Assembly (NCBI GenBank): GCA_017651425.1
Contig: JAGCCZ010000004.1
Span: 1 to 64,000, forward strand
Length of the DNA: 64,000 nucleotides
Direction: 5' to 3'
Source: Bacteroidales bacterium
GTDB lineage: Bacteria > Bacteroidota > Bacteroidia > Bacteroidales > WCHB1-69
Each line of letters starts with the position of its first letter. Position 1 is the first letter of the stretch. Below the pieces are notes generated by a model. The model did not search any database. It was given only the letters and a program-made list of their open reading frames with translations, and had not been told where the DNA came from. Shown here in pieces: positions 20,233 to 29,448 of this stretch. The position numbers and the translations under genes were made by a program.

Positions 20233-20532
20233 ATGAACACCGAAATGATAGAGACCATTCGCGAGTATTTCAAAACCCAGCCGGTTTTGAAGGCCTGGCT
20301 GTTCGGCTCGTTCGCCCGCGGCGAGGAGACCGAAGACAGCGATGTGGATATTCTGGTGGTTTTCGACAGACATAATCATCCTGTTGGATTATTTGAACAT
20401 GTACGAATGATTAATTCACTGGAAGATTTGCTTAAACGCAGGATTGATTTGGTTGAAGACGGAACTCTTCTGCCTTTTGCTGCCGCCAGCGCCAACAAAG
20501 AAAAAGTATTATTGTATGAGAGAACCAGTTAG
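20233..20532 (+). CDS. mntA: MntA-type nucleotidyltransferase antitoxin
   Basis: A minimal nucleotidyltransferase of 99 aa with the signature GSx10DxD (G25, S26, D37, D39 in GSFARGEETEDSDVD) followed by ILVVF. In characterised MntA-HepT pairs the antitoxin transfers AMP to the Tyr of the toxin RX4HXY motif and so neutralises it. The 3' end overlaps hepT by 17 nt, the usual arrangement. The last 15 residues (NKEKVLLYERTS) are typical. I see no loss of catalytic residues, so the pair is probably active. Confidence 0.9.
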   Translation: MNTEMIETIREYFKTQPVLKAWLFGSFARGEETEDSDVDILVVFDRHNHPVGLFEHVRMINSLEDLLKRRIDLVEDGTLLPFAAASANKEKVLLYERTS

Positions 20533-20869
20533 AGACAAAGGCAGGTTGGAACATGTTTTATCTGCCATTAGCAAAATAAACACATTCTTGGAGGGACAGG
20601 ATTTTGAGAGTTTCTCCAAGAATGAGATGATGTATTTTGCGATTGTCAAAAACGTGGAAATCATTGGTGAGGCCGCATATATGCTCACAAATGAGTTTCG
20701 GGACACGCATTCCGATGTTGAATGGAGAGACATCATCAGCATGCGACATGTGTTGGTACACGGATACTATCAAATCAGCAAAGAGGAAGTATGGGACACC
20801 GCCAAGAATAATTTGCCACCGCTAAAAACCCAAATAGAACAATATCTCTCCGAAATGGAGCAGCAATAA
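20516..20869 (+). CDS. hepT: HepT-type HEPN ribonuclease toxin
   Basis: An all-alpha HEPN-domain protein of 117 aa with the catalytic/AMP-acceptor motif RX4HXY intact (R77, H82, Y84 in RHVLVHGYY). HepT toxins cleave RNA (tRNA in studied cases) and are silenced by their MntA partner. The start at 20516 is the ATG inside the end of mntA. A frame extended further upstream would only re-read mntA. A hairpin with T-rich tail (20942-20962) lies 73 nt past the stop. Confidence 0.9.
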   Translation: MREPVRDKGRLEHVLSAISKINTFLEGQDFESFSKNEMMYFAIVKNVEIIGEAAYMLTNEFRDTHSDVEWRDIISMRHVLVHGYYQISKEEVWDTAKNNLPPLKTQIEQYLSEMEQQ

Positions 20870-20941
20870 ATATCAACCCCAATTTTTCACCAAACCCTTA
20901 TAGCGTATAGAGACAGAACAGACTTTTTAACATATTGACAT

Positions 20942-21100
20942 AAAGCGTTTTCGCTTTTCTTTGTTGCACGAGAATCTGGACAATTTTCAGCATACCACAA
21001 AGAGGAAACGATGCGCTTGCGATGTAAATCGTGAGCTTAATTGTTTGTGGTATAGGTGTCCAGACCTTCGTGCAGCGCAAAACAGGCTCACGATTTTTTT
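20942..21100 (+). ncRNA. Candidate pseudoknotted structured element
   Basis: No gene is supported here, yet the sequence is exceptionally self-complementary. There is an AAAGCG-TTTT-CGCTTT hairpin (20942-20957). Three nested arms follow: TGCACGA (20965-20971) with TCGTGCA (21068-21074), TCTGGACA (20975-20982) with TGTCCAGA (21057-21064), and ATACCACAAA (20992-21001) with TTTGTGGTAT (21044-21053). ATCGTGAGC inside the apical loop (21028-21036) is perfectly complementary to GCTCACGAT outside the stem (21086-21094). That second pairing is followed by seven T, giving either a pseudoknot or a switch between two folds. The alternatives are a palindromic MITE or a leader or terminator region between hepT and the XRE gene. 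The strand is inferred from the T-run. Confidence 0.5.
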
Positions 21101-21107
21101 ATGTTTG
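21100..21107 (+). promoter_or_regulatory. -7 element for the XRE regulator gene
   Basis: TATGTTTG starts within the T-run that ends the structured element and lies 15 nt upstream of the ATG at 21123. Confidence 0.5.
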
Positions 21108-21122
21108 TGATGCAAGTAGTAA

Positions 21123-21380
21123 ATGATAAATACGATACAGGAAACAATGCAAGATAGTACCCCTCATATAGGCAAAATAATCAGGGAAGTTGTGGTGCGA
21201 AAGGAGGTGAAAATCTCTTGGCTGGCAAAACAGTTGAATTGCCACCGCAACAACATCTATCTGATTTTTTCCAGAAGCTGGATTGACACCGAGACCCTGA
21301 TGCGCCTATGTCATGTGCTGCAACATGACTTCTTCAAGGATTTGAGCTCATGTTACACTAATGATTGTGCAAAGAAATAA
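21123..21380 (+). CDS. XRE-like helix-turn-helix regulator
   Basis: A DNA-binding protein of 85 aa. The helix-turn-helix (about 20-68) reads IGKIIREVVVRKEVKISW then LAKQLNCHRNNIYLIFSRSW then IDTETLMRLCHVLQHDFF. This is the Bacteroidota form of the XRE fold, with the recognition helix around RNNIYLIF. It stands 111 nt before the GrpE-like/Hsp70 genes on the same strand. It is the obvious candidate regulator of that cassette or of its own promoter. The start is the ATG just after the -7 element at 21100. Confidence 0.75.
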   Translation: MINTIQETMQDSTPHIGKIIREVVVRKEVKISWLAKQLNCHRNNIYLIFSRSWIDTETLMRLCHVLQHDFFKDLSSCYTNDCAKK

Positions 21381-21440
21381 TGGGCACAACTGCCTATTGT
21401 TTCTTTGCATATCTATCACAAACAAAAATGTTAATCTGGT

Positions 21441-21448
21441 TAAATTTG
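21441..21448 (+). promoter_or_regulatory. Possible -7 element for the Hsp70 cassette
   Basis: TAAATTTG lies 43 nt upstream of the GrpE-like start at 21492. I see no clear operator palindrome next to it. Confidence 0.45.
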
Positions 21449-21491
21449 CATTTTAATTTCTTTGAAATGATTTTCTAATAATTTATTGATT

Positions 21492-22313
21492 ATGATAACA
21501 ATACCGTCAACAGAAAGTGAATATCCCAAACAAGTGGAGAATGTCCCAGATGAATCCCGTTTCGTAACGGAAAGCGGTACAAAAGATGAGGAAAATGTAA
21601 ATGAAGTCCCTTCTGATGAATGCCCTGATGACCAGGACATTCATCAGTCTTCAACGGAAGAACCTTCCGATGAAAAGCCAGATGAATGCGAAGAAGTCCC
21701 TCTTGCTCCTGAACCGAAGCAGGAATCGGAAAAGATAGAAAACCTTATACGCCAAAAGGCAGAGGAATTTGACCTAAAATTGCAAGAAATGATCTTGGAA
21801 CGGAAGGCACTCGCCGAAAAATTGGCACATAGTGAGGAACGGTTTTACCAACTCACACAGTCGGTGCAGGAAGACCGCTATCGGAAAGACAAGTCGCGGC
21901 TGCTCGGTGCCTGCATCGATGAGGCCAATCTGATACGCAGCTCGCTGTATGATTTCCGCAAACGGCGCGATAATGGCGAATTGAAAAAAAATGCGGAAGA
22001 AGAACTGGAGGAGATGCTGGAAAAAATCGTGGATCATTTCGACAAACGCATCCTTCGGATAGAACGCGTGGAGGTGCTGCCGAAGGCAGAACCAGGCAGC
22101 GGCTTCCGCGAAGACATCCAGGATGTAGTGGACTACCAGCCCACCGACGACCCGCAAATGGTTGGAAAAGTGGCCTGTTCTGAATCGCCAGCCTACGTGT
22201 GGACGCTTCCCTACATCCTCAAAGCCAAGGTGGATGGCGACGGGAACGAAATCAACAGCTATCGTTTTCTGTTGGAAAGAGAAAAAGTAATCATTTATAA
22301 AAACCAAAATTAA
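21492..22313 (+). CDS. GrpE-like nucleotide exchange factor of an Hsp70 cassette
   Basis: A protein of 273 aa, longer than housekeeping GrpE (about 190-200). Residues 1-85 are acidic, Pro/Glu/Ser-rich and probably disordered. A long helix or coiled coil spans about 85-145 (LIRQKAEEFDLKLQEMILER...). The C-terminal part keeps GrpE head-domain features: YQPTDDPQMVGKV (compare the GrpE PTDDP/G-x-V block) and a terminal beta strand REKVIIYK. It ends 6 nt before the Hsp70 start, so the pair is co-translated. I infer that it serves the adjacent Hsp70 rather than the general DnaK. The ATG at 21492 is chosen over a TTG two codons upstream. Confidence 0.75.
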   Translation: MITIPSTESEYPKQVENVPDESRFVTESGTKDEENVNEVPSDECPDDQDIHQSSTEEPSDEKPDECEEVPLAPEPKQESEKIENLIRQKAEEFDLKLQEMILERKALAEKLAHSEERFYQLTQSVQEDRYRKDKSRLLGACIDEANLIRSSLYDFRKRRDNGELKKNAEEELEEMLEKIVDHFDKRILRIERVEVLPKAEPGSGFREDIQDVVDYQPTDDPQMVGKVACSESPAYVWTLPYILKAKVDGDGNEINSYRFLLEREKVIIYKNQN

Positions 22314-22319
22314 AGCTTT

Positions 22320-23873
22320 ATGGGAAAATATTACGGAATAGACTTAGGCACGACCTACTCCTGCATCGCGGTGGTGGACGGTGATGCGGAAACCCCCAAC
22401 CCGGAGGTTATCATGAACCAGAAAACCCAGAAGTTCGTGGTGCCCAGTGTGGTCAGAATCACCGACAAGTTGGATGAGAACGGTGAGAATGTGGTCCAGG
22501 TCGGCGATCAGGCAAAAAACAACTTCGGGGCAGACCCCGAAAACACCGTGGCCTTCATCAAGAGAAGCATGTCAGACCCGAATTACAAGCGTGCCATACG
22601 CGGCAAAGACTACACCCCAGAGCAAATCTCCGCGCTGATTCTGAAGCATTTGGTGAACACAGCCAACGAACAACGCCGTCAAGTGGAAGAAAATGCCGAA
22701 CCCATCTACGACGTGGTAATTACAAAGCCGGCGTATTTCGCCGAGTTGGAAACCCGCCGAACCATGGAAGCCGGGAAACTCGCTGGACTTAACGTGATGC
22801 GGCTCATTAACGAGCCCACTGCGGCAGCGTTGTCGTACGGTCAGCGCCAACCCGACGATAAAACCCTTTTAGTTTACGACCTCGGCGGGGGCACTTTCGA
22901 TGTCACCATAATGCGGTTTCAAGACAAAGTGGCTAATGTGCTCTCCACCGACGGCGACAAGCAATTGGGTGGATACAACTGGGACATGGCATTGGTCAAT
23001 TACGTTCTGAGTAAAGTCGACGGAAAATACGAAGAACTTTCCCTGTCCGATCAGAACAGGATACTCAAAACAGCCGAGGAGGTGAAAAAGCAACTCAGCG
23101 ACTTGGAGGAATACCTCTTCGCATTCAACTACAAAGGGATGCAGGAGGTGAATGTGACGCAAGAGGATTTTGATGAATGCACGAAAGTCTTGTTGGGAAA
23201 AACGAGTCGTATGGTGAAAGAAGCCCTGAAAAAGGCCAATCTACAGGAAGACTCCATTGATGAAGTGCTGCTGATTGGCGGCTCCACGCACATGCCCCAG
23301 GTGAGAAAACTTATTGATGAACTTTTCCCTAACAGTGAGGTGAAAGACGAGGTGAATCCTGAGAGAGCTGTAGCGTTGGGCGCAGCTGTGTTAGCATGGC
23401 AGGAAAGCCAGGGCGGAAGAACAACAAAAAATCCAGGTCCCACAATTGATAAAGACAAAAACCCCTACTCATACGGCGTGCAAGCCTATAACACCAGCGG
23501 GAAATTGAAGATTTTCAATCTGATAAAAGCTCAGGAAAATTTGGAGATTGAACGGACAGACGAGGCTTTCTATACCTCTGAAGAAGGTCAAACCCACATA
23601 AGACTCCATTTTTATCAAGCCAAGTCCACGGATTACGAGATGGAGTTGTCGTTAGGCGATGAAATCTATGCGGAAGGGAATGAAGGTGGCCTGCATCCAG
23701 AGAAACAGGATGTGTCGTGGGGAGTGCCTGCTCCAAAAGGATCTCCAGTTGTCTATCGAGTAAAACGCGACAAAAACGGAATCGTCAAGGTGTTTGTGGA
23801 ATGCTGCGGCGCAAAGGGCGAGTTCAAGTTGGGTATGCCGGCCAGCAAAAGCTCTGACGTCAGTCGTAGATAA
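22320..23873 (+). CDS. Shortened Hsp70 (DnaK-like) chaperone
   Basis: An Hsp70 family ATPase of 517 aa, about 120 residues shorter than DnaK. The nucleotide-binding domain is complete: phosphate-1 DLGTT (8-12), RLINEPTAAALSYG (about 161-174), phosphate-2 YDLGGGTFDVTIM (about 184-196) and adenosine motif LLIGGSTHMPQVRKLI (about 318-333). After about residue 380 only a beta-sandwich-like segment remains (YSYGVQAYN ... CCGAKGEFKLGMPAS). The alpha-helical lid and the EEVD-type tail are absent. This suggests a specialised chaperone with an altered client cycle. No J-domain protein is encoded nearby. It lies directly after the GrpE-like gene and before two membrane-protein genes. Confidence 0.88.
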   Translation: MGKYYGIDLGTTYSCIAVVDGDAETPNPEVIMNQKTQKFVVPSVVRITDKLDENGENVVQVGDQAKNNFGADPENTVAFIKRSMSDPNYKRAIRGKDYTPEQISALILKHLVNTANEQRRQVEENAEPIYDVVITKPAYFAELETRRTMEAGKLAGLNVMRLINEPTAAALSYGQRQPDDKTLLVYDLGGGTFDVTIMRFQDKVANVLSTDGDKQLGGYNWDMALVNYVLSKVDGKYEELSLSDQNRILKTAEEVKKQLSDLEEYLFAFNYKGMQEVNVTQEDFDECTKVLLGKTSRMVKEALKKANLQEDSIDEVLLIGGSTHMPQVRKLIDELFPNSEVKDEVNPERAVALGAAVLAWQESQGGRTTKNPGPTIDKDKNPYSYGVQAYNTSGKLKIFNLIKAQENLEIERTDEAFYTSEEGQTHIRLHFYQAKSTDYEMELSLGDEIYAEGNEGGLHPEKQDVSWGVPAPKGSPVVYRVKRDKNGIVKVFVECCGAKGEFKLGMPASKSSDVSRR

Positions 23874-23890
23874 TACTCTGAAAAATGTAC

Positions 23891-23929
23891 TTTTCGATGG
23901 GACAGCTGTGCAGGCCGTCTCATCGAAAA
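23891..23929 (+). terminator. Hairpin between Hsp70 and the first membrane gene
   Basis: A 13-bp stem (23891-23903 with 23917-23929, one G-T pair) is followed by ATTTATTG. The tail is not a strong T-run. It looks more like an attenuator or an RNA-processing hairpin within the operon than a full terminator. Confidence 0.5.
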
Positions 23930-23945
23930 TTTATTGTGCAGTGGT

Positions 23946-25292
23946 ATGAATACAATTACCCAAAAACGAATTGACGAATGGCTGCAATTAGGCAAGAAGA
24001 TAGACCAAGAATATCAAGACTTACTATCCGCAAATCATTGTCTTGACGGCTTCAACCGCACCTATAACTTCGCAGGCAAATACGGCAGGGACAATATAGA
24101 CTCGTCCTATGAAAGCATCGAGGATGTTGCAAGCGCGATCAGTGATGACAGGGCGAATATATTGTATGACTATTGCTCTAATGGCAGGGTGCTCTTTGGG
24201 GAGGACAGTTCGCCGGAGGTCTGGTTATACATGCGGAATAACCATAAACTACCAGGCATGGAGGATGTGGCCAAATGGTACCGTGCCGGACAGCAGTTGG
24301 CCAACTCCGACCTTCTCCTGCAAATTGGGGATGATATGGAAGGCGAAGGGGCGGCGGAAATGTTTTTGTCATCTTTTGACCGTGGCGGCATAAACGTTAG
24401 TATCAGGACATTGGAACTCGCCTATAACGTGCTCAAAAATTGGGCGGAGCGGCATCCAAACAACCCTATGCGCCCCCAAGTCTCTGAGTATGAGAAGGCC
24501 GGACGGCGGCTCTTCTTCTCTAAACATTACGACATAGAGGCGGTACGGAATTTTATGTTAGAGACTGAACTGTTGATGGACTTGACGAAGATCCGCGAGA
24601 AGTACCGGCAGCAGCTTGACCGCAGGAAAAAGGCGGATGAGGAACGGCGGCGCAAAGAGAAGGAACGACGGGACAGGTTGGCGCAGGAAGAGTCGTTCTG
24701 GATCTCCACCCTTCAGACGGACACCAAGGTTGCTTATAAAAATTACTTGCAAAAATATCCAGATGGTAAGCATAAGAAACAGGCCAAACAGCGGCTTCAC
24801 GAAAAGAACAAACGCAAAAGGCTAATCCTGATTGCGGTGGCGGTGGTGGCAGCCCTGAAGTTCCTTCCCTCTCTATATGTGCTTGTGTCCGACTTCTATG
24901 AAACGCATTTCCAGTGCCACACTTTGGAGGTTTTGAACGACCCTGTCTTTACAACCACCGATTATGACGCACAATTGGCCATTCTTGACAGTGTGATCAA
25001 GGATACGAAGCGAAAAAAATGCGTTGAGGACATTCTTCCATATTATCAACATATCGATTCCCTGCATTTTGTTCTTCAAGAACTCCGTCCGCTGTTTTCT
25101 AAGCCCAAATACGGACGCTCGAAAGTTGAGAACTATTGCAGGAAAAAGGCTGATTATATGGATAGTATTACTGTTGTAAGAGACTATCTGCTCCAGGCGG
25201 AAACGGCCGCACCCGATGACAATGAAATCAAAAAATACAAGACAACCTTTGAAAAATTGGTGAAAAAATACAGAATCACATTTCCAAACTAA
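23946..25292 (+). CDS. Single-pass membrane protein with coiled coil, Hsp70 cassette
   Basis: A protein of 448 aa of no family I recognise. Residues 1-215 are a helical cytosolic domain (MNTITQKRIDEWLQLGKKI ...). A strongly charged coiled coil follows (about 215-250, KKADEERRRKEKERRDRL). The block AYKNYLQKYPDGKHKKQAKQRL (about 262-283) resembles the TPR-like AY-x-x-YL-x-x-YP-x-G repeat seen in Bacteroidota signalling proteins. One transmembrane helix is at about 294-318. The C-terminal 130 residues would be periplasmic by the positive-inside rule. It follows the Hsp70 gene by 72 nt including a hairpin. The soluble N-terminal domain could be the site where the chaperone docks; that is inference. 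Confidence 0.6.
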   Translation: MNTITQKRIDEWLQLGKKIDQEYQDLLSANHCLDGFNRTYNFAGKYGRDNIDSSYESIEDVASAISDDRANILYDYCSNGRVLFGEDSSPEVWLYMRNNHKLPGMEDVAKWYRAGQQLANSDLLLQIGDDMEGEGAAEMFLSSFDRGGINVSIRTLELAYNVLKNWAERHPNNPMRPQVSEYEKAGRRLFFSKHYDIEAVRNFMLETELLMDLTKIREKYRQQLDRRKKADEERRRKEKERRDRLAQEESFWISTLQTDTKVAYKNYLQKYPDGKHKKQAKQRLHEKNKRKRLILIAVAVVAALKFLPSLYVLVSDFYETHFQCHTLEVLNDPVFTTTDYDAQLAILDSVIKDTKRKKCVEDILPYYQHIDSLHFVLQELRPLFSKPKYGRSKVENYCRKKADYMDSITVVRDYLLQAETAAPDDNEIKKYKTTFEKLVKKYRITFPN

Positions 25293-25315
25293 TATCAACA
25301 AAAATCAATAAAGGT

Positions 25316-26821
25316 ATGAGAAAAAACCTCTGTAAAATAGTGCTATTTATAGCTTCGATCATGATGATGTCTTCGCTTTCCGCCCAGAATGACCGCGCAA
25401 CTTTTGGACTGAAAGGGAACGTGACCAAAGTTTCAGCTGACCATGGCAATTATGCGGTCTATCCTATAGGAAGGAATGATTGGGTGAGATACGACCTGCT
25501 GTTCTCCAACACCGGAAAATTGGAGGAGGTGAACGGAATGCATGTTACATCTGAAAGTTTCGCATACGATCATGAAATTCAGCGGGATTCACAAAACAGG
25601 ATTTCGAAACTTTCCTCCGTGGCAGGCGAAGGGTTGCAGTGGGTAGTGTTCCATTACGATGATCAAGGGCGGGTCTCCTCGGAAGATTATGTTTACGAGA
25701 ATCTTGATGCAGGATCGGAAGACAACATCGGGAACACTCGGTATTATTACGATGACAACGGCAATGTGGTGAAAGCAGTGGTATATGACGCATACGACTC
25801 CACAACGAACACGGTGAACTATACCTACAGGAAAACGGATGAGTCGGGGAATTGGGTGGAACGAGTTGCCAATTGCCCGAACTTGGGGTTGAACAATCAG
25901 GTGGAAAAGAGAGCTTTGTCATATATGGACAAGGCTGTTGCGGGCACAACGGATAGTGACACCACTGCAATGCAGACGGTGCCGGGTGTAAGTCCTGTCA
26001 CAAAACAGCCAACAAAAAGGTCTTTTTGGGATGTTTTCCTTGGACTCCTTTTGGTTGTGGCCCTGATATTCATGATTGTCTATATGGTTTATATTCTCCT
26101 TATCCGCGACCGGAAGCTGCTACCCAAAACTATTGAAGATTTCAAAGCTTATAGGCAGGAGCACAACATGCCGGAAGAGTCTTCTGACGCAGAGAATGAG
26201 AGCATAACACCTCTTTTTGAAGAGGTTTTCCATAGCCTCACACATGTCAGGAAAGGCGGGGAAGAAGAACATTACTTCACCACGAAGGAGCAGATAGAGG
26301 GACTGCGGGCGGCATTGGTACAGACGTTAGAGACTGCCCCGACGCATCCAGAGTGTGTGGATTTGTACAACGAAATGTTAGCGGAATACAAAACATGCAC
26401 CAAACGGCAGTTCATGGGCAGTAAACCCTATCTGATTATCGGGGGCATCATCACGGTGCTGATGACGATTGGCGGCGGTCTTATGGCACTGCCGTTCATG
26501 CTGCTGAATATCTGCGGCTACTATTTTGCCAGCCAAGAGACCCAGTTCATGATCAACGCCAAAGAACTGAAGGAAGCCGGCAGTAGCGGCAAGTCGAAGC
26601 TGATGACCATCCTGATCGCGATGGGCATAGGAGTGCTGTTTTCGGGGCAGAGCTACAAGACCATCACAACTTGGAGTGACGGGACGACATCGACCGATTA
26701 CGATCATAGCGAGCATCTGGTTGCCTTAATTTTCGGTATGATTATCATTGCCGTTTTAGCTTTCTTTATGTTTGCGGTCGCCTTAGTGAATTTTATCAGA
26801 AACTATTTGATTTACAAATAG
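25316..26821 (+). CDS. Exported/polytopic membrane protein with YD-like repeats, Hsp70 cassette
   Basis: A protein of 501 aa with signal peptide (ends MMSSLSAQ). A beta-rich periplasmic domain (about 30-215) has RHS/YD-like strands: VVFHYDDQGRVSSEDYVYE, RYYYDDNGNVVKAVVYD and NYTYRKTDESGNWVER. A transmembrane segment lies at about 240-262. The cytosolic helical part (about 263-360) contains a KGGEEEHYFTTKEQIEGL block. Three more hydrophobic segments follow at about 368-400, 435-450 and 470-495. It lies 23 nt after the preceding membrane gene and is the last gene of the cassette. Function unknown. The layout (outside sensor-like domain, membrane, inside domain) could suit signal transmission. 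Confidence 0.6.
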   Translation: MRKNLCKIVLFIASIMMMSSLSAQNDRATFGLKGNVTKVSADHGNYAVYPIGRNDWVRYDLLFSNTGKLEEVNGMHVTSESFAYDHEIQRDSQNRISKLSSVAGEGLQWVVFHYDDQGRVSSEDYVYENLDAGSEDNIGNTRYYYDDNGNVVKAVVYDAYDSTTNTVNYTYRKTDESGNWVERVANCPNLGLNNQVEKRALSYMDKAVAGTTDSDTTAMQTVPGVSPVTKQPTKRSFWDVFLGLLLVVALIFMIVYMVYILLIRDRKLLPKTIEDFKAYRQEHNMPEESSDAENESITPLFEEVFHSLTHVRKGGEEEHYFTTKEQIEGLRAALVQTLETAPTHPECVDLYNEMLAEYKTCTKRQFMGSKPYLIIGGIITVLMTIGGGLMALPFMLLNICGYYFASQETQFMINAKELKEAGSSGKSKLMTILIAMGIGVLFSGQSYKTITTWSDGTTSTDYDHSEHLVALIFGMIIIAVLAFFMFAVALVNFIRNYLIYK

Positions 26822-26886: not shown

Positions 26887-28866
26887 ATGAAAAAACTTAC
26901 AATTTTAATCACCATGATGATGTGCCTGACCATGCTCTTTGCCCAGGCACCCGAGAAATTCAATTACCAAGCGGTGGTGCGCAACAGTTCCAATCAACTG
27001 ATGGCCAATGCTAATGTGGGCGTGCGCGTGAGCATCCTGCAAGGGAATTCAAATGGTTCTGCTGTCTATGTGGAGACCCAAGCGGCCACAACCAATGCCA
27101 ACGGACTTATGACCGTTGAGATTGGCGGCGGCAACGTCCAGCAAGGCAATTTTGCCAATATCGACTGGGCGGACGGTCCCTTCTTCCTGAAAGTGGAAAC
27201 CGACCCCAACGGTGGGAACAGTTACAGCGTGACTTCCAACCAGCAGCTGATGAGCGTGCCGTATGCGCTGTACGCAAAAGAAGCGGGAAACGGCTTCAGT
27301 GGTGACTACAATGACCTGACGAACGCGCCTGCCATCCCGACAGTACCCACCAACGTGAGTGCCTTTACTAACGATGCGGGCTACGTGACGAACATCGGTT
27401 GCAATGGTGTGTCGCTGTGCGACATGTACGACACCCTTGCTGCTTTGAACGGCACTGTTGCTGCATTGCGCGACACCATCACGTTGCTACAGGCCGTCGT
27501 GGAGGTGCTCAGCAACCCCTATGTGGAGAGCACGCCAATGGTAACCACCACGGTGGTGAGCTACATCACCCAGACATCGGCCTATTGCGGAGGCATCGTG
27601 ACCAGCATGAGCAACAACCCCGTGACGGCCCGCGGCATTTGCTGGAGCACCAACCCGCAACCCACTCTCGCGGATGCGTACACCAACGACGGTGCCGGTG
27701 TGGGCAGCTTCACCGGTCTGATGAGCGGTCTTACCCCGAACACCACCTACTACGCCCGCGCTTACGCCACCAACAGTCTCGGCACGGCTTACGGCGCAGT
27801 TGTCTCGTTCACCACCAATGATGTGACTGCCGTGGCCGATCTGCCCACCGTGATCACCTCTCCCGTGACCAACATTATCCAGAACCACGCCAATTGCGGT
27901 GGTATGGTGACTGCAGACGGTGGAGCACCTGTGACTGAGCGCGGCGTATGCTGGAACATCACTGGCAGCCCCTCCGTTACGGGACAGCACTCTTCCGACG
28001 GCAGCGGTTTGGGCGAGTTTATGAGCAACATTGCCGGCCTCACTGTGAACACCACCTACTACGTGCGCGCCTACGCCACCAACAGCGCGGGTACGGCCTA
28101 CGGCGAGGTGATTTCCTTCACTCCCGGCGTTTCTTGCCCCGGCACGCCCACCGTCACAGACTACGACGGAAACACCTACAATACCGTGCAAATCGGCACC
28201 CAGTGCTGGATGAAGGAAAATTTAAGAGTGAAACATTATGCGAACGGAAATGGCATAGTTTTTGGTGGAGGTCTGCCATCCTTATCAACCGAAACAGAAA
28301 AACGTTACTATTACCCCAACAATAATAACAACAATGAGAACGTGTATGGTCTTCTTTACAATTGGATTGCTGCAATGAATGGATCTGATACGAGCAATAC
28401 GATTCCGAGCGGTGTGCAGGGTATATGTCCAACGGGATGGCATTTGCCGAGTGATGCTGAATTTCAGACCCTAGTTGGTTATCTTTATGCGAATAGTGAA
28501 TATTCTTGTGGATTGAATCAAAATTATATTGCAAAAGCATTGGCTGATACTATTACTTGGGAGCAAGTGCCTGTATCATACCAATTCCACAATCAGTACT
28601 ATTGTATGGTTGGATATGATACAACGTCAAACAATGCTACTTTTTTTTCAGCGAGAGCTGCAGGACAGGCGCCAGCGAACGAATATGCTGTTCAACCAGC
28701 GTATTTTAATCAGTCTACATTTTATTGGACAACAACACAGATGAACAACTATCCGAACTGTGCGACAACCTATGGGTTAGATTATGATTATGCAACAATA
28801 CAAACCCCTTTCTATCTGAACAGTAATAAGGGTTGCTATAATTCTGTCCGCTGCCTGAAAGACTAA
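26887..28866 (+). CDS. Secreted FN3 protein with FISUMP domain
   Basis: An exported protein of 659 aa with signal peptide MKKLTILITMMMCLTMLFAQ. The N-terminal beta domain (about 22-140, NYQAVVRNSSNQLMANANVG) is typical of Bacteroidota cell-surface proteins. A short coiled segment follows (about 180-205). Two FN3-like repeats sharing ARAYATNSLGTAYG / VRAYATNSAGTAYG lie at about 215-315 and 320-412. The C-terminus (about 417-658) is a Fibrobacter succinogenes major paralogous domain (VQIGTQCWMKENLRV, YGLLYNW, CPTGWHLPSDAEFQTL, SVRCLKD). Base composition changes sharply near 28206: GC is about 67 percent in the FN3 part and about 38 percent in the FISUMP part by single-line counts. A domain fusion by recombination is likely. 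No T9SS signal of its own is present. Confidence 0.82.
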   Translation: MKKLTILITMMMCLTMLFAQAPEKFNYQAVVRNSSNQLMANANVGVRVSILQGNSNGSAVYVETQAATTNANGLMTVEIGGGNVQQGNFANIDWADGPFFLKVETDPNGGNSYSVTSNQQLMSVPYALYAKEAGNGFSGDYNDLTNAPAIPTVPTNVSAFTNDAGYVTNIGCNGVSLCDMYDTLAALNGTVAALRDTITLLQAVVEVLSNPYVESTPMVTTTVVSYITQTSAYCGGIVTSMSNNPVTARGICWSTNPQPTLADAYTNDGAGVGSFTGLMSGLTPNTTYYARAYATNSLGTAYGAVVSFTTNDVTAVADLPTVITSPVTNIIQNHANCGGMVTADGGAPVTERGVCWNITGSPSVTGQHSSDGSGLGEFMSNIAGLTVNTTYYVRAYATNSAGTAYGEVISFTPGVSCPGTPTVTDYDGNTYNTVQIGTQCWMKENLRVKHYANGNGIVFGGGLPSLSTETEKRYYYPNNNNNNENVYGLLYNWIAAMNGSDTSNTIPSGVQGICPTGWHLPSDAEFQTLVGYLYANSEYSCGLNQNYIAKALADTITWEQVPVSYQFHNQYYCMVGYDTTSNNATFFSARAAGQAPANEYAVQPAYFNQSTFYWTTTQMNNYPNCATTYGLDYDYATIQTPFYLNSNKGCYNSVRCLKD

Positions 28867-28894: not shown

Positions 28895-29383
28895 ATGAAT
28901 AAAGTGACAGTTCTTCTAACCCTCTCCCTGCTCTTGTTTGCAGGGATAGCGTCCGCCCAGTCGGCTATCGTGCCGATAGGCGGCGATGCACAAAGCAACG
29001 GCGGCAGTGTGAGCTTCACCGTCGGGCAGATTGCGGTGCAGACCGTCAGTAACAGCAACGGCTCTGTCTACGTGGCTGAGGGCGTGCAGCAACCCTACGA
29101 AATCATGATCGTAGGTGTTGACGACTACCCACAGATTTCCCTCCGCGCAGTGGTCTATCCCAACCCAGCCTCCACCATTGTCAATGTACAATTTATAATG
29201 AACAATGTACAATTAGAGGATGCGGGGATGCAGGTGTTGGATATGTACGGCAAATTGGTGAAAGTTGTTCCGATTACGGGTGAAACCACATCTATTAATG
29301 TCTCCGACTTGGCCGACGGCGTCTATTTTGTGCGTTTGCGCACGGATGCGGGAACAGTAACCAAACGTTTTGTCAAAAATTGA
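28895..29383 (+). CDS. Short T9SS-sorted secreted protein
   Basis: A protein of 162 aa with signal peptide ending IASAQ. A short beta segment (SIVPIGGDAQ-like; GGSVSFTVGQIAVQTVS) and the block VYVAEGVQQPYEI are typical of very short Bacteroidota T9SS proteins. The type A T9SS CTD starts at VVYPNPAS (about 88) and ends GVYFVRLRTD ... KRFVKN. Its position 29 nt after the FISUMP gene suggests it could be a partner or anchor for that protein. The CTD contains the repeat-derived insert VQFIMNNVQL (29183-29212). Confidence 0.75.
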   Translation: MNKVTVLLTLSLLLFAGIASAQSAIVPIGGDAQSNGGSVSFTVGQIAVQTVSNSNGSVYVAEGVQQPYEIMIVGVDDYPQISLRAVVYPNPASTIVNVQFIMNNVQLEDAGMQVLDMYGKLVKVVPITGETTSINVSDLADGVYFVRLRTDAGTVTKRFVKN

Positions 29384-29420: not shown

Positions 29421-29448
29421 GCAGGGACGGGGCACACCTCGTCCCTAC
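29421..29448 (-). repeat. REP-like palindrome 3
   Basis: A 28-nt imperfect palindrome with left end GCAGGGACG and right end CGTCCCTAC. It lies 37 nt after the T9SS gene stop and is followed by ATTTTATT, so it may also end that transcript. Confidence 0.6.

Follow-up and report, generated by a model that had tools for sequence, protein, structure and literature searches.

Organization of the locus

The stretch analyzed here (the window) comprises positions 1 to 64,000 of the forward strand of contig JAGCCZ010000004.1, from a Bacteroidales bacterium whose genome assembly (GCA_017651425.1) has 2.83 Mb in 75 contigs and whose gene content is Bacteroidales-like, with type IX secretion tails and FISUMP proteins. 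It contains a cassette of three genes, encoding a GrpE-like protein (P2), an Hsp70 without the helical lid (P3) and a membrane protein (P4), which lies behind a structured leader RNA and the gene of an XRE regulator and is followed by genes encoding exported proteins. The features of this region are as follows, all on the forward strand.

20960-21101, +: structured leader RNA (144-position covariance model, named R1; window match of 124.5 bits)
21123-21380, +: XRE/HTH_26 regulator (Pfam HTH_26, E 8e-5)
21492-22313, +: candidate GrpE-like protein P2, with a disordered acidic N-terminus; an alternative TTG start at 21486 is possible
22320-23873, +: lid-less Hsp70 P3, 517 amino acid residues (HSP70, E 1e-91), which stops after the beta substrate-binding subdomain
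23946-25292, +: P4, with one transmembrane (TM) segment (residues 294-312), in the third-gene slot of the cassette
25316-26821, +: P5, with a signal peptide, an exported N-terminal domain and TM segments, assigned to a separate surface module
26887-28866, +: exported protein with a FISUMP (Fib_succ_major) domain (Pfam, 3e-29), found in the same order in the sister species G006
28895-29383, +: exported protein with a type IX sorting tail (Por_Secre_tail, 8.5e-16), probably the last gene
29423-29446, +: terminator-like hairpin, which ends the apparent transcript

An earlier note on this DNA had described five same-strand open reading frames (ORFs), from a small helix-turn-helix regulator to P5, with gaps of 6, 72, and 23 nt, and their positions, the gaps and the class of the regulator agree with our analysis. 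The limit drawn after the fifth gene was probably too narrow, since the transcription unit probably continues beyond P5 through the FISUMP gene and the Por secretion tail gene to the hairpin at 29423-29446, and the structured RNA at 20960-21101 had been overlooked. Third codon positions have a GC content (GC3) of 50-60% inside the island, in contrast to 77-79% in the genes on its flanks, which encode an M13 peptidase and an ABC permease. This difference is consistent with an inserted island.

The lid-less Hsp70 and the GrpE-like protein

The genome contains, separately, a canonical DnaK split over two contigs. Compared to this DnaK, P3 keeps the ATPase motifs (GIDLGTT, IKR, INEPTAAAL, YDLGGGTFD, and GGST) but has lost the hydrophobic linker, showing PTID-KDK in place of DILLLDV. 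Furthermore, its chain finishes at residue 517, past the beta domain, and the alpha-helical lid is missing, as the earlier note had read from the sequence. Viral contigs searched with P3 gave no match, and a contig scan found distant Hsp70 homologues only, with 31-41% identity, whose lid state was not considered.

The predicted model of P2 shows a long acidic disordered start, then a long helix, additional helices and a beta wing, at low confidence (predicted local distance difference test, pLDDT, of 56.7), and a Foldseek search with this low-confidence model found no GrpE and no PDB match. In single-sequence comparison, P2 weakly matches a canonical GrpE (E 7e-4), the target ORF itself being assigned to Pfam GrpE at 1e-46; a profile comparison against four GrpE proteins likewise gave a weak result. 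The GrpE genes of three related cassettes, described below, match Pfam PF01025. The weak similarity and the synteny with these Pfam-positive genes weakly suggest that P2 is GrpE-like; of the GrpE-like factor with acidic N-terminus proposed before, the long acidic start was found as described and the GrpE identity depends on these two observations. Among 35 other genomes of the genus, P2 gave nothing past one weak partial match; neither P2 nor P4 has a convincing homologue among 60 relatives, and both gave no match in plasmids and viral contigs. None of the five proteins from the XRE regulator to P5 shows a J-domain match, so that the lack of a J-protein noted previously is real at this locus, yet related cassettes bear J-like proteins in their third slot.

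Relatives of the cassette

The triad of GrpE-like, Hsp70 and third gene is rare and patchy: it was found in three other genomes of the phylum (G208, G590, and G769) and, with a changed gene order, in a Rhodococcus plasmid. In the three genomes, a GrpE gene is located immediately upstream of the gene of a lid-less Hsp70, and the third gene is downstream. Their third proteins are:

G208: a J-like start, read by eye and unreported by Pfam, and HYDIN/ASH-type Ig domains
G590: a degenerate J domain (DnaJ, 0.012), TPR and a hydrophobic C-terminal part
G769: a helical start and an FGE-sulfatase domain, twice

The third slot is thus filled by a J-like protein in two of these relatives (G208 and G590). 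A J motif is missing from P4 itself, and the lack of a J-protein becomes less odd because P4 occupies the slot held by J-like or TPR proteins in the relatives. The Rhodococcus plasmid (L214; NZ_CP070617.1, 69175-75563) shows consecutive genes for an Hsp70, a TPR protein, a GrpE and an FtsK, with TniB/TniQ and a recombinase as neighbors, and this row is likely a mobile relative of the cassette. The lid-less tail is rare in 393 genomes of the order and in 385 genomes of the phylum. Across the latter, a profile of the tail set only G590, G769, and the window clearly apart, with 171-194 bits compared to about 74 bits or less for ordinary DnaK, the scores of G590 and G769 being so by construction because both were built into the profile.

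The presence of the Hsp70 gene in one species of the genus only, together with its degraded linker, could indicate an acquired and degenerate DnaK paralogue that has no function under selection and persists by chance in a variable island. We regard this as quite unlikely, since the ORFs are full, the ATPase motifs are kept, the GrpE-like gene is co-inherited and the three-gene order is conserved in distant taxa.

P4 and the P5 module

P4 is helical and contains a coiled coil, a single TM segment and a short TPR-like motif, which agrees with its earlier description as a single-pass protein and makes it the membrane-anchored partner of the pair. Its N-terminal helical part is probably cytosolic, with the C-terminal part across the membrane. 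The single-sequence AlphaFold model was uninformative (pLDDT of 42.6).

P5 shows a signal peptide and several TM segments. Its membrane and exported character was correctly recognized before; the "YD-like" repeats attributed to it are weak, as an RHS repeat was detected only in a homologue, with an E value (0.033) below the cut-off. A search in 40 genomes of the genus found a full-length homologue of P5 (73% identity) in the sister species G006 and a fragment (84%) in G034. In both, a gene encoding an SH3/TM protein is located before the P5 homologue, and no homologue of it was found in the genome of the window. Downstream of P5, G006 shows the FISUMP and type IX-tail genes, same as in the window, and neither P2 nor P4 is matched in its genome. 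P5 with the FISUMP and type IX-tail proteins is therefore taken as one module and P2-P3-P4 as another. Furthermore, homologues of the XRE regulator (33-69% identity) follow four further copies of the leader. The locus is thus a composite of three parts: the GrpE-like/Hsp70/third-gene triad, the P5 module, and the XRE gene with the leader.

The earlier note had read the five genes as one dedicated chaperone machine at the membrane, which is consistent with the short gaps, the single strand and the apparently single transcript. Of that proposal, the GrpE-like/lid-less Hsp70 pair with a membrane-anchored partner holds; the five-gene machine is very improbable, because P5 was found apart from the pair, one of the outcomes that the earlier note itself had named as refuting, the XRE gene goes with other leader copies, and the complete five-gene composite was seen in one genome only. 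Another reading starts from the three exported proteins on the apparent same transcript and from P4 as a membrane anchor: Hsp70, the GrpE-like protein and P4 would keep P5, the FISUMP protein and the type IX-tail protein export-competent before Sec and type IX secretion. This envelope quality control is unlikely, given that the P5 module exists in G006 apart from GrpE-like and P4 genes and that leader-driven genes of the type IX secretion system elsewhere also do without the cassette.

Some repeats were also observed around the XRE gene and the cassette. An inverted repeat (20/21 nt), unexplained, has one arm in the XRE gene (21214-21234) and the other in the P5 gene (26520-26540), spanning the cassette. 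A 19-nt hairpin is located at the XRE stop codon (21368-21409); the XRE gene is flanked by GTTTGTGAT/ATCACAAAC half sites, located at 21098-21111 and 21415-21428. The hairpin and the half sites are possible operators.

Structure of the leader RNA

The 181-nt stretch at 20930-21110 folds with a z value of -5.0. The structure of the leader was defined from 33 copies (alignment A6) and consists of the following elements, all on the forward strand.

20942-20957, +: 5' hairpin AAAGCG-TTTT-CGCTTT, near-invariant in all copies (alignment A5, RNAalifold)
20965-20971 with 21068-21074, +: helix P1, changed on both sides in 7/7 pairs
20972-20975 with 20983-20986, +: stem of hairpin A
20976-20981 with 21058-21063, +: kissing loops of hairpin A and hairpin B, double changes in 5/6 pairs
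20992-21001 with 21044-21053, +: helix P3, which encloses the apical hairpin, double changes in 7/9 pairs
21015-21023 with 21028-21036, +: apical hairpin, 99.6% paired
21028-21036 with 21086-21094, followed by a T run to 21100, +: intrinsic terminator, 96% of cells paired, 21 double-change cells

The 3' arm of the apical hairpin also serves as one strand of the terminator, and the two hairpins are mutually exclusive. In alignment A6, 21 of the 37 leader pairs are changed on both sides, and several columns of helix P1 show all four Watson-Crick types. The double-change cells amount to 193, compared to 59.5 ± 6.1 after shuffling and 19-41 in the slid controls, counted on the same alignment used to read the structure and with a shuffle contrast inflated by the kinship of the copies. 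Fifteen further copies, mostly from other genera, show double changes in 23/37 predicted pairs, in an alignment fitted to the model.

Scans with Rfam 15 found no family matching the element above the gathering score, and the same scans recovered two known RNAs in flanking DNA: a SAM-I-IV riboswitch near an HsdR gene (L204, 1229-1332) and a DUF805b RNA immediately 3' of a leader copy (L206, 1440-1475). Neither Rfam 15 nor the literature searched, which included few subscription journals, appears to describe the leader. In its architecture, it resembles a riboswitch or attenuator.

Distribution of the leader and genes located downstream

The leader, as DNA, was searched for in 45 relatives and recurs in 21 of them; the genome of the window has six matches. 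Matches to R1 were found in 107/393 genomes of the order, belonging to 70/206 genera, often with multiple copies per genome; in G006, one copy is directly 5' of the SH3/TM-P5 operon. In 40 of 41 leader loci, the next downstream ORF shares the strand of the element, typically about 80 nt past it, whereas upstream genes are in 23 cases on the same strand and in 14 on the opposite one (n = 37). In a second set, taken from the match list, the downstream ORF is on the same strand in 18/20.

As a dispersed multicopy element with some copies near transposase-like genes, the leader could be a mobile DNA repeat, attC- or REPIN-like, in which the palindromes act as DNA and not as RNA. There is little chance of this. 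The strand bias is downstream and not upstream, G-U pairs prevail over A-C (67 and 17), the terminator and its T run are conserved, and palindromes account for neither the kissing loops nor the three-strand exclusivity. Integron attC and REPIN identities were rejected on the strand bias, the wobble bias and the conservation of the terminator.

The genes behind the leader encode large type IX-sorted and BspA-LRR surface proteins, FISUMP proteins and Tubulin_2 proteins (6e-53). Defence genes were also found behind leader copies: ZorA2 (2e-163), HsdR/type I and type IV-like restriction enzymes, and SNF2/PLD (HKD+Snf2) helicases, one HKD+Snf2 gene being behind another copy in the genome of the window (L181). 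Tubulin_2 proteins are encoded in operons behind the leader at L169 (1972-4104) and L170 (8685-11798); the L170 operon also contains FGE-sulfatase/PEGA and P5-N-like genes and resembles tubulin-type conflict systems. Tubulin_2 is absent from the genome of the window.

Just 5' of the leader, the window shows two genes that suggest a type VII toxin-antitoxin-like pair, a neighbor for which membership of the unit is not claimed:

20233-20532, +: MNT-type nucleotidyltransferase (Pfam NTP_transf_2, 1e-17)
20516-20869, +: HepT-like protein (HepT-like, 4.5e-26)

MNT/HepT-like pairs are also located just 5' of the leader copies at L182 and L206. Furthermore, a short piece of the element, its first 22-29 nt, is repeated 0.6-2.3 kb 5' of full copies (L179, L165, L177, and L197), sometimes before small STAS-like or GHKL-looking genes.

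Comparison with described systems

In about 14% of GAP1-N2 neighborhoods, HSP70 and GrpE occur together with FNIII proteins fused to DnaJ or TPR; others carry tubulins, and a conflict role was proposed for the GrpE/Hsp70 neighborhoods (Kaur et al., 2020; PMC7159879). The cassette resembles these GTPase-centric systems in the adjacent HSP70 and GrpE(-like) genes, the J-like or TPR parts in the third protein of the relatives, the tubulin in operons of sister species and the FGE-type domain beside Hsp70 in G769. However, the third protein of the window is a membrane protein with no J domain, there is a single Hsp70 which keeps its beta substrate-binding domain (SBD), and the theme was mainly reported in actinobacteria and firmicutes, to which this host does not belong. 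FNIII fused to DnaJ or TPR was not found: P4 has only the short TPR-like motif, and the FISUMP protein shows weak fn3 matches but is exported.

Canonical DnaK-DnaJ-GrpE shares with the cassette the ATPase domain, the beta substrate-binding subdomain and a GrpE-type partner, whereas lid, linker and J-protein are missing from the cassette. CnuD, the Hsp70-like protein of CoCoNuT with nucleotide-binding domain (NBD) and SBD, likewise belongs to a predicted defence operon as an Hsp70 without the usual role in folding (PMC11090510), but has degenerate ATPase motifs and McrBC partners, while P3 keeps intact motifs and McrBC is absent here. The leader shares with riboswitch and attenuator leaders of Rfam 15 an aptamer-like covarying domain and an exclusive terminator/alternative hairpin, although its targets are defence and surface modules and not metabolism. 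In line with the earlier note, no described system with exactly this gene set was found in the literature searched. The chaperone cassette is a rare variant of a described GrpE/Hsp70 theme; more surprising is the structured leader.

Proposed function

We propose, with a probability of roughly 45%, that the cassette is an Hsp70/GrpE conflict-type switch under a shared attenuator leader, akin to the systems of Kaur et al. (2020) but without their GTPase/GAP1, with the P5 module being separate. This is proposed because the three-gene order recurs in G208, G590, and G769 and in the Rhodococcus plasmid, the cassette is patchy, and the ATPase motifs are intact with linker and lid lost; because the leader covaries and precedes same-strand genes, other copies preceding defence genes; and because the Tubulin_2 operons behind the same leader match the tubulin and Hsp70 themes of PMC7159879 and the GC3 of the island differs.

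Several results weigh against this proposal. P2 has no match to Pfam PF01025 (GrpE) at an E value of 0.1, and its assignment to GrpE is weak at the sequence level and unproven for the fold. Beyond the short coiled-coil/TPR motif, P4 lacks a clear homologue, so its role is deduced from its position. Pfam scans of the operon and selected flanking genes found no DO-GTPase or GAP1, the only GTPase in the scanned genes being an EF-G-like gene about 18 kb away, and hence the cassette is considered to work like the GAP1-N2 systems and not to be a member of them. No PADLOC model matches the five proteins, and the cassette relatives gave nothing beyond marginal scores. R1 has no match at the G208, G590, and G769 cassettes, so there is no fixed tie between the leader and Hsp70. 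Moreover, the leader also precedes many surface-protein genes and does not by itself mean defence, and since the leader loci were selected by hit rank, without a background rate, the defence link is an association and not a test.

Intrinsic terminators with exclusive hairpins usually work by attenuation. In the conflict-type switch proposed here, a signal or an RNA-binding factor would favor the aptamer-like fold with the apical hairpin, the polymerase would read past the terminator and the operon would be expressed, with the XRE protein tuning this expression. An Hsp70 without lid releases its substrate faster; with the lid absent and the linker altered, P3 would be expected to bind its partner weakly and reversibly, and may act as an ATP-driven, partner-specific switch and not as a general folding machine. 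GrpE proteins mediate nucleotide exchange, and P2 would reset the Hsp70. P4, anchored in the inner membrane, would recruit the Hsp70 to the membrane and is likely its client or output, while P5, the FISUMP protein and the type IX-tail protein would form the separate surface module on the shared transcript. We infer a defence function from the above comparisons, and a conflict (defence-type) response would be the likeliest purpose of the cassette.

Finally, we put forward, more tentatively, a broader possibility: that the leader is a new order-wide attenuator class which couples one signal to an anti-phage and variable-surface regulon, the GrpE-like/lid-less Hsp70/P4 cassette being an undescribed defence module within it. 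If true, this would give a route to how these bacteria turn on defence and surface variability jointly, and a testable RNA structure 5' of systems already known, among them Zorya and restriction enzymes. It would also present an Hsp70 that, lacking lid, linker and J-protein, acts as a partner-specific switch, and the leader RNA would predict new defence genes from position alone.

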